From Actinokineospora inagensis DSM 44258 (GTDB lineage: Bacteria > Actinomycetota > Actinomycetes > Mycobacteriales > Pseudonocardiaceae): a DNA stretch of 64,000 bases. The stretch spans positions 1 to 64,000 of the forward strand of contig NZ_AXWW01000029.1 in NCBI RefSeq assembly GCF_000482865.1, written 5' to 3'. This document shows, one piece after another, positions 53,489-55,638 of this stretch. The position numbers and the translations under genes were made by a program. Position 1 is the stretch's first letter. Every line of letters begins with the position of its first letter. The notes under the pieces were generated by a model. That model was given only the letters and a program-made list of their open reading frames with translations, did not search any database and had not been told where the DNA came from.

Positions 53489-53522
53489 CGACGGCGCCGT
53501 CCCCGCGGGGGCGGCGCCGTCG
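53489..53522 (+). terminator. rpsT terminator
   Basis: CGACGGCGCCG (53489-53499) pairs perfectly with CGGCGCCGTCG (53512-53522) with an internal CCCC/GGGG loop, 14 bases after the rpsT stop. It lacks a U tract but is typical for ribosomal protein genes of GC-rich bacteria. Confidence 0.8.
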
Positions 53523-53544
53523 CTGTGTGCGCCAGACTGCCGAC

Positions 53545-54045
53545 ATGGACCCGAAACCCACGTCGGCGGCGAGGACCTCGCTGTCGCACATCATGACCTC
53601 GGTGGACACCAACCTGCTCGGCACCGTCCACGGTGGAGTCATCATGAAACTGGTCGACGACGTGGCGGGCGCCGTCGCCCAACGCCACGCGGGCGGCCCC
53701 GCCGTGACCGCGGCCATGGACGGCATGACCTTCCTGCACCCGGTCCGGGTAGGTGACCTCGTGCACGCCCACGCCCAGGTCAACTGGGCGGGCCGCTCGT
53801 CGATGGAGGTCGGGGTCCGCGTCCTCGCCGAGCCGTGGGACCGCGCGGGCGTCCCACCCACCCGCGTCGCCACCGCCTACCTGGTCTTCGTCGCCGTGGA
53901 CGACCAGGGCGCCCCCCGCAGTGTCCCCCCGGTCGTCCCGGAGACCCCCGAGGACGAACGCCGCATGCGCGAGGCCGAGATCCGCCGTCACCACCGCCTC
54001 ACCCGCCGCGACGAGATCCTGGCCAGCCGCACCGCCACCCACTGA
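53545..54045 (+). CDS. hotdog-fold acyl-CoA thioesterase
   Basis: A 166-aa thioesterase of the BFIT/YciA type. HIMTSVDTNLLGTVHGGVIMKLVDDVAGAVAQRHAGG holds the catalytic helix and Asp (about 14-50), followed by AMDGMTFLHPVRVGDLVHAHAQVNWAGRSSMEVGVRV. ATG 53545 chosen; GTG 53527 possible. The last five codons, including the stop, lie inside the left arm of the inverted-repeat element. Confidence 0.9.
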   Translation: MDPKPTSAARTSLSHIMTSVDTNLLGTVHGGVIMKLVDDVAGAVAQRHAGGPAVTAAMDGMTFLHPVRVGDLVHAHAQVNWAGRSSMEVGVRVLAEPWDRAGVPPTRVATAYLVFVAVDDQGAPRSVPPVVPETPEDERRMREAEIRRHHRLTRRDEILASRTATH

Positions 54046-54387
54046 CCCACCCCGCGCCAAGATCAACCGCCACAAGAGCCCCCGAATACACAGGGTAGGC
54101 AGGGAGGCCGACAAGATCGCCGCTGATGGCCACCGGCAACCGTGTTCGCGCCCGCCCGGACCTTTGCCTCGGCACCGTCGACCAAGGGCCAGCCACGGGA
54201 CGGCGCAGGCAGGGCCCCGTCGACGGTGGCCGTCGAGTACGTCGGCATCACCGTCACCACTCGCAGGCCCAGACCGCTCCGCGCGTCCCGGCTTCCCGAT
54301 CTTGTCGGTCCCCGCGCCTACCCTGTGTATTCGGGGGCTCTTGTGGCGGTTGATCTTGGCGCGGGGGGTGGGTCAGTGGGCGGCGGT
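54031..54387. mobile_element. 357-bp inverted-repeat element (MITE-like) between convergent genes
   Basis: An 89-base arm at 54031-54119 is the reverse complement of 54297-54387 with only about five mismatches and one two-base gap. 49 bases (54052-54100 against 54316-54364) match perfectly. The 177-base centre has no gene-like ORF. The left arm takes in the last codons of the thioesterase gene and the right arm ends at the last base of the holA stop. No target duplication is obvious. It could be a miniature transposable element or a giant bidirectional terminator. Confidence 0.7.
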
Positions 54388-55364
54388 CAGTCGCGGTCGT
54401 GGGCGCGGGCGAGGCGGAGGACGGCGCGTTCGAGGGCGTAGTCCGGGTCGGCGGCGACGCCCTTGACGTCGGCGTTGACCTCGGCGGCGGCGCGCATGGC
54501 TTCGGCGAGACCGGCGGGTTTCCAGCCGCGGGACTGGGCCAGCGCCTTCTTGACCTTCCAGGCGGGCATGCCGAGCTCGCCAGCGAGCTTGAACGGGTCG
54601 GCGCGGCCCGCGCCGGCGACCCTGGCGACGGTGCGGACCGCGTCGGCGAGGGCGTCGGCGACCAAGACGTGCGGGACGCCGAGCTGCATGGCCCAGCGGA
54701 GGGCCTCCATGGCGCCCGGGATGTCGCCGGTGATGGCCTTCTCGGCGACGGCGAACCCGGTGACGTCGGCGCGGCCGCGGTGGTAGCGGCGGACCGCCTC
54801 CTCGGTGACCTCGCCCCCCGCGTCGGCGACGAGCTGCGCGGCGGCGGCCGCCAGCTCCCGCAGGTCCGAGCCGACCGAGTCGATCAGCGCGGCGACCGCG
54901 CGCGGGTCGGTCTTGCCGCCCGCGTGACGGATCTCGTTGCGCACGAACGCTTCCCGCTCGGCCGCCTTGGTGATCTTGGGGCACTCGGTGACGACGGCGC
55001 CCGCCTTCTTCATGGCGGCGACGATGTCCTTGCCCGCCTTGCGGCCGCCGCCGTTGTGCACGACGGTGAGGACGATCCCGTCGGCCGGGGCCTTGGCGTA
55101 GCCGATCACCAGGGCGGCGATGTCCTGGGTGGCGTCGTGCGCGGCGTCGAGGACGATCACCCGGCCCTCGGCGAACAGCGACGGGCTGACCATCTCGGCC
55201 AGTTCGGGGGCTGTGAGATCAACCACCCGGGTCCTGGTGAGGTCCGCGGCCGGGTCGGCCAGCCGGGCGGTGTCCAGCACGGCCCGGATGGCGCGCTCGA
55301 CGAGCAGTTCCTCTTCTCCCAGCACCAGTTGCAGCGGCGGCGGGGTGACCGCGGGGGAGTTCAC
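54387..55364 (-). CDS. holA: DNA polymerase III delta subunit HolA
   Basis: A 325-aa clamp-loader subunit. PLQLVLGEEELLVERAIRAVL is the N-terminal Walker-like region, GIVLTVVHNGGGRKAGKDI and KKAGAVVTECPKITKAAEREAFV follow, and the C-terminal collar domain includes MPAWKVKKALAQSRGW. GTG 55364 is the family start. Corresponds to Rv2413c. Confidence 0.95.
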   Translation of the reverse strand: MNSPAVTPPPLQLVLGEEELLVERAIRAVLDTARLADPAADLTRTRVVDLTAPELAEMVSPSLFAEGRVIVLDAAHDATQDIAALVIGYAKAPADGIVLTVVHNGGGRKAGKDIVAAMKKAGAVVTECPKITKAAEREAFVRNEIRHAGGKTDPRAVAALIDSVGSDLRELAAAAAQLVADAGGEVTEEAVRRYHRGRADVTGFAVAEKAITGDIPGAMEALRWAMQLGVPHVLVADALADAVRTVARVAGAGRADPFKLAGELGMPAWKVKKALAQSRGWKPAGLAEAMRAAAEVNADVKGVAADPDYALERAVLRLARAHDRD

Positions 55365-55470
55365 GCCCGCGATCCTGCCACGGTGGGCCGACGTGGGCGG
55401 TACCGGCGCGCGGCGGTCGCCCGCTGGCCGAGGGGGCCGCGCGTGCCGTACCGTTGCCGTCACGTCTTAG

Positions 55471-55484
55471 GCCCAGGCCTGGGC
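55471..55484. promoter_or_regulatory. 14-bp palindrome ahead of the SAM riboswitch
   Basis: GCCCAGGCCTGGGC is a perfect palindrome 16 bases upstream of the riboswitch P1 helix, where the thrC promoter should lie. A GAATAC -10-like box follows at about 55492. It could be an operator or a chance hairpin. Confidence 0.35.
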
Positions 55485-55499
55485 GACAACTGAATACCG

Positions 55500-55625
55500 C
55501 TCATCCAGAGGGGCAGAGGGATCGGCCCGAAGAAGCCCCGGCAACCGGCGTACGCGCCACTTCCTCATCGCGAGGAGGCGGACGACCACGGTGCCAATTC
55601 CGACCCGCGTAGCGGGATAGATGAG
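55500..55625 (+). ncRNA. SAM-I (S-box) riboswitch
   Basis: The S-box core is plainly present: AGAGGGATCGGCCCGAAGAA, CCCCGGCAACC, and GGTGCCAATTCC, in order and spacing. P1 is CTCATC (55500-55505) with GATGAG (55620-55625). The gene's Shine-Dalgarno GAGGAG (55623-55628) overlaps the 3' strand of P1, so SAM binding should stabilise P1 and block translation. TCCTCATC at 55562-55569 can also pair with GATGAGGA. It controls the thrC-like gene downstream. Confidence 0.94.
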
Positions 55626-55638
55626 GAGACACCTCGCG

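Follow-up and report, generated by a model that had tools for sequence, protein, structure and literature searches.

The window that we analysed, a 64,000-nucleotide stretch of the Actinokineospora inagensis DSM 44258 genome, holds two genes that run towards each other: a thioesterase-superfamily gene (4HBT; 53545-54045, + strand, with a start codon chosen by us) and a holA-like gene (DNA polymerase III delta, C-terminal domain; 54387-55364, - strand). The junction between them is spanned by a large inverted repeat that reaches into the coding end of the former and touches the stop codon of the latter. A domain search placed a ribosomal S20 gene upstream in the neighbourhood, and a SAM riboswitch (RF00162, 78.9 bits) lies at 55498-55627 (+), upstream of an ORF that we take to be threonine-synthase-like.

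A repeat search of the window returned two inverted pairs, 54050-54119 with 54297-54366 (94%) and 54031-54057 with 54361-54387 (93%), which join to give the element, with inner arms 177 nt apart. The left arm (54031-54119, +) opens with the final 15 bp of the thioesterase gene (54031-54045), its last four codons and the stop codon with which the ORF ends at 54045, and continues as one repeat unit oriented in the same sense as that gene. The right arm (54297-54387, -) is an inverted copy whose first base, 54387, is also the final base of the holA stop codon. The arms align with five substitutions and one 2-bp gap, and a BLAST search of the element against its own genome matches arm to arm at 92% (E 9.5e-31). 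The longest perfect stretch common to both is 51 bp (54050-54100 on the + strand, partnered by 54316-54366 on the - strand). An earlier sequence-only reading had described arms of about 89 bp around a 177-bp centre, one supplying the last codons of the thioesterase gene and the other ending on the last base of the holA stop; all of this is borne out, as is its perfect core, which measures 51 bp rather than the 49 bp it had given.

The centre (54120-54296, assigned to no strand) is found once in the genome, as the earlier reading had held, apart from one match of 37 bp at 83% (40 candidates scored; among the matches listed). The matched gene is presumably glyS, of which the centre may hold a captured piece. 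Folded as RNA, the element reaches -265.5 kcal/mol, compared with -164.5 +/- 5.9 for 100 dinucleotide shuffles (z -17.3). Read from the alignment, the arm mismatches would form G-U pairs in only one of five cases in + strand RNA and three of five in - strand RNA, and thus give no clear sign of selection for pairing, such as the strong selection for a hairpin that had been considered earlier. The same differences, five substitutions and an indel, make an assembly artefact unlikely. Rfam had no match above the gathering threshold at the element or in 13 other loci. A scan for a hairpin with a T run gave no site in 53500-55500, with loops of 3-8 nt, a range that a 177-nt loop would escape, and the sequence has no T run 3' of either arm.

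Judged by its likeness to copies elsewhere, each arm corresponds to a single ~68-bp unit of a repeat family that is interspersed in the genome. The element has at least 91 BLAST matches in its own genome, itself included, and all but the self-match fall in the arms; a second whole arm-centre-arm copy is absent there (40 candidates scored; among the matches listed). Of the mobile element suggested earlier, the repetition at many other sites is borne out for the arms but not for the arm-centre-arm element. To follow the unit across species we used model R1, a sequence-only profile built on 37 units from five species chosen by similarity to the arms. It scores repeat unit 1 (54054-54119, +) at 60.5 bits and repeat unit 2 (54297-54362, -) at 62.5 bits, both of which are themselves in its alignment. 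With 150 candidates scored per genome, the model has at least 148 matches in the own genome (G000), at least 150 in G015, 66 in G006, 60 in G005 and 58 in G011; there are 10 in G008, two each in G004 and G009, and none in 8 of the 16 genus genomes. The five unit-rich Actinokineospora genomes form a clade with a bootstrap of 90 in a tree of thioesterase and holA (G001 entered without holA). In a family-wide sample of 120 genomes, searched under stricter filters, one further genome, from a different genus, had two weak matches. At the level of titles and listings, the literature on Actinokineospora repeats, convergent-gene repeats and Pseudonocardiaceae repeats yielded no description of this repeat. 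The family appears to be new.

We took 37 stretches around element matches in the own genome and read 34 of them for layout. Most share a common design, in which a GC-rich header of ~170-200 bp precedes one to three units built as AAGATCAACC-N-AGCCCCCGAATACACAGCCTA-N-CACCGACA. The header consensus recurs at 90-97% identity in at least 41 places, over at least 165 of its 202 bases; a 31-bp part of it recurs inverted ~50 bp upstream, and 28 headers yield a consensus that folds into a large hairpin with a long stem. We considered an autonomous parent of the header and set it aside: the inverted 31-bp piece occurs only ~50 bp from the header (40 candidates scored; among the matches listed). In the unit itself, 17 of ~68 columns are invariant across the 37 units of five species while the others vary, and RNAalifold predicts no pair for these 37 units, with which we dismissed a conserved RNA structure. 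Together, the invariant columns and the lack of a predicted structure point to recognition of the sequence and suggest that something recognises the unit, perhaps a mobilising enzyme. In the smaller context sample described below (29/41 convergent), any overlap of a unit site with a called gene was 40 bp or less, and the repeat, judged by its length, would have no gene of its own.

The window element differs from the other copies in its arrangement. The best 120 of at least 148 own-genome units make up 66 sites (some at contig ends and possibly cut), comprising 25 single units, 28 tandem pairs, 11 tandem triplets, one back-to-back group and one facing inverted pair, which is the window element. 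Tandem units start 67-81 bp apart; in the window the two starts are 243 bp apart and the units face one another, and no header is present in the sequence around them. The sequence CCCCGAATACACAGGGTAGG, allowing one mismatch, occurs only in the two window arms among the 16 genomes scanned. With gaps excluded, the left arm is 92.8% identical to the right arm (69 columns) and 93.1% identical to one G015 unit (58 columns), so that identity alone is no proof that the arms are sisters.

Comparing the thioesterase-holA junction among relatives, as had been proposed earlier, we found holA convergent within the stretch in 14 of the 15, separated from the thioesterase gene by 7 to 1090 bp, and did not find it in the stretch from G001. 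No unit stands above noise at this junction in any of the 15 (best hit 4.9 bits, E 1.2, in G004), which removes a hairpin conserved at the orthologous junction from the candidates. Two relatives carry other repeats at this place: G014 (L068) an unrelated large near-palindrome, CGAGTTCGACATTCGCG...CGCGAATGTCGAACTCG, and G003 (L063) a run of CCGGTCCGGTCC-type repeats of ~200 bp. The thioesterase gene of G003 ends in CGCACCGCCAACCCACTCTGA, which resembles the outer part of the left arm; because such C-terminal ends are found in relatives free of the element, we read the outermost 15 bp of the left arm as probably native to the gene. A copy of this 15-bp gene end, with one difference, stands in the right arm beside the holA stop, which fits an inverted duplication or a conversion from the thioesterase side. 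Other copies have a header whose end (GCCCAGTGACCCC, for instance in L023) is also partly similar to the left outer end, so part of this 'gene end' could be repeat-derived.

On balance, we think it probable that the element is a local inverted copy of a member of this clade-specific repeat and that it probably hinders read-through, and we hold this with somewhat better than even confidence. The simplest account is that the 3' end of the thioesterase gene, together with the unit beside it, underwent a local inverted duplication or gene conversion. A repeat unit would first have arrived immediately 3' of the thioesterase gene, oriented towards holA; a segment of ~89 bp comprising the gene's final 15 bp and the unit would then have been copied in inverted orientation next to the holA stop, either by template switching during replication or by gene conversion of an older unit already there. 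Afterwards the arms would have diverged slightly outside the conserved core of the unit. Both the copying mechanism and its direction, from the thioesterase side, we infer. A transcript of either gene that crosses the junction would contain the unit and then its complement, and the resulting ~90-bp stem would probably hinder read-through into the opposing gene.

The arms could instead descend from two units that entered the junction independently, one behind each gene, and were later homogenised by a conversion that extended into the thioesterase end. Units are plentiful and lie at convergent junctions more often than anywhere else, and a conversion tract could explain the variant common to both arms; yet this history requires two insertions plus a conversion, and no other facing pair exists among the 66 sites. 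Nor does sharing a site make units more alike on average: the 68 within-site pairs of the own genome have a mean identity of 0.843 (the highest reaching 96%) against 0.854 for 786 pairs from different sites. We regard independent entry as a doubtful, though possible, origin. Far less credible is the non-autonomous MITE, one of the two possibilities named in the sequence-only reading, with 89-bp terminal inverted repeats around the 177-bp centre. Long, near-identical inverted arms, their repetition elsewhere and their absence from the junction in all 15 relatives are what such an element would leave. Its centre and its entirety are nonetheless found once (among the matches listed), 64 of the 66 sites carry the arm sequence as a single unit or in tandem and one as a facing pair, and the left arm begins with 15 bp that appear to be the thioesterase gene's own. 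A target duplication is missing, as had been noted before: the near-match of the flanks, CAGCCGC/CAGTCGC, is coding and is also present in relatives without the element, such as G006. Copy number, the missing duplication and a gene end within the arm led us to reject the MITE as very improbable.

The genomic context of the family bears on what a local inverted copy might do. Unit sites lie between convergent genes in 45 of 69 cases, compared with 25 of 250 unit-free neighbour pairs (Fisher p 9e-20), and a stricter cut-off gives 43/68 against 21/228. This sample comprised 80 stretches from G000, G005 and G006 plus the window, itself one of the 69 sites; 16 further unit sites lacked a called neighbour and lie outside the 69, and the gene calls are home-made, from a codon score trained on the window. 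By genome, the convergent share is 11/13 in G006, 13/15 in G005 and 21/41 in the own genome, where 21/187 other pairs are convergent (p 7e-8). The bias holds in the own genome in weaker form, and about half of the sites there lie elsewhere. The samples grew along the way: the earliest gave 22/28 convergent (28 of 68 sites being fully called), and a first smaller version of the present one gave 29/41 against 20/157, with 5/13 in the own genome, after which we enlarged the own-genome sample by 40 stretches. Orientation follows the same trend, the gene 3' of the unit running towards it at 12/13 sites in G006, 15/15 in G005 and 28/39 in G000.

Given this placement, a role of the inverted pair as a bidirectional barrier to transcription is plausible from its sequence and position, and the bidirectional terminator named in the sequence-only reading is possible. 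Convergent bias alone is no proof of function, since the BOX, RUP, SPRITE and IS elements of pneumococcus have the same bias, which in their case has been taken to mark them as parasitic (PMC3049150). Accordingly, both the repeat and the inverted pair may be functionless, neutral or parasitic passengers tolerated between convergent genes where nothing is disrupted, and to this we give a substantial chance, though one short of even. The variation of the junction from 7 to 1090 bp in 14 relatives agrees with it; the 17 invariant columns suggest recognition and speak against it, with the reservation that selecting units by similarity to the arms favours invariant columns.

Rho acts at sites on RNA that are rich in C and poor in G and that are not known to need an invariant sequence. 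Units could serve as such loading (rut-like) sites, halting transcription before the opposing gene, and an inverted pair would then serve both genes. Apart from their position between convergent genes, the units have a suitable composition on their own strand, with C at 0.41 and G at 0.15 over 73 own-genome units and C exceeding G in all 73 as well as in 45/45 units of other species; the coding strand is unskewed by comparison (C 0.358, G 0.357). The two window units are less skewed, however (C 0.36, G 0.29), and the invariant sequence of the unit is not something that Rho would need, which leaves this an unlikely explanation. A broader proposal, also rather unlikely in our estimation, would make the unit a boundary signal, recognised by a protein or by Rho, that one Actinokineospora lineage has spread into convergent gaps, that is coupled in some species to a phased pair of DnaA-box-like 9-mers, and that was mirror-duplicated here and so serves both genes.

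The 9-mer in question, TGTGGAYAA, which we take to be DnaA-box-like, occurs in pairs exactly 19 bp apart in 15 of the 16 genus genomes (148 pairs in G015, 65 in G005, 34 in G000), and the reversed pair pattern has no occurrence in the 16. In G015, 19 of 33 units have two such 9-mers within 90 nt downstream and the other 14 have one, and five boxes stand in register at G015:C14:128200-128284; none of 96 own-genome units has one in that range. We considered the pairs as the key to convergent placement and found no support for this in the own genome, where two of the nine loci with called genes on either side (12 loci in all) are convergent. A clear unit precedes the pair at none of the 11 readable own-genome loci (within L180-L191). 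Rather, the pairs there follow other recurring sequences, such as CCGGGGCCCATTCCTGACGATA...TGTCAAG, candidates for a second intergenic repeat family of similar layout. At L108 and L112 in G015, units without a header are embedded in runs of another repeat (CCTGGACACTCGGACCC...GGTGCCA...).

These results place a striking hairpin in the context of a clade-limited repeat family concentrated at convergent junctions. The relatives that lack the repeat at this junction make it a good natural system for telling parasites in safe places from working transcription boundaries, and the locus is a candidate case of a long hairpin that arose by a local copying event. Such an event has a parallel in template-switch quasipalindromes, where a reverse-complement repeat that can fold into a perfect stem may arise in a single event (PMC8794818); here the 177-bp spacer and the ~89-bp arm are long, and the event itself we infer.

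Among dispersed repeats, REP sequences are likewise of high copy number, mostly intergenic and found predominantly between co-directional and convergent genes (PMC3733652), and in BIMEs they alternate in orientation (PMC2817692), as the two window units do. Our unit differs in its length of ~68 bp and in having no consensus structure (the header does fold). The tyrosine transposase domain Y1_Tnp (PF01797) is absent from all five unit-rich genomes and present in two of the 16 genus genomes, both without unit matches; with a unit that is not palindromic, this led us to discard a RAYT-driven REP. By its many dispersed intergenic copies and its convergent bias (45/69 against 25/250), the family ranks with small interspersed repeats of the BOX/RUP kind. 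The closest layout is that of BOX in Streptococcus pneumoniae, which is modular, dispersed and over-represented between convergent genes, and is built of fixed parts and a variable number of tandem internal modules (PMC3049150). In our family, one to three units ~78 bp apart stand at one end, behind the header, and we recognised no closing module. The likeness to the boxA-(boxB)n-boxC arrangement is one of layout, and we claim no kinship between the two.
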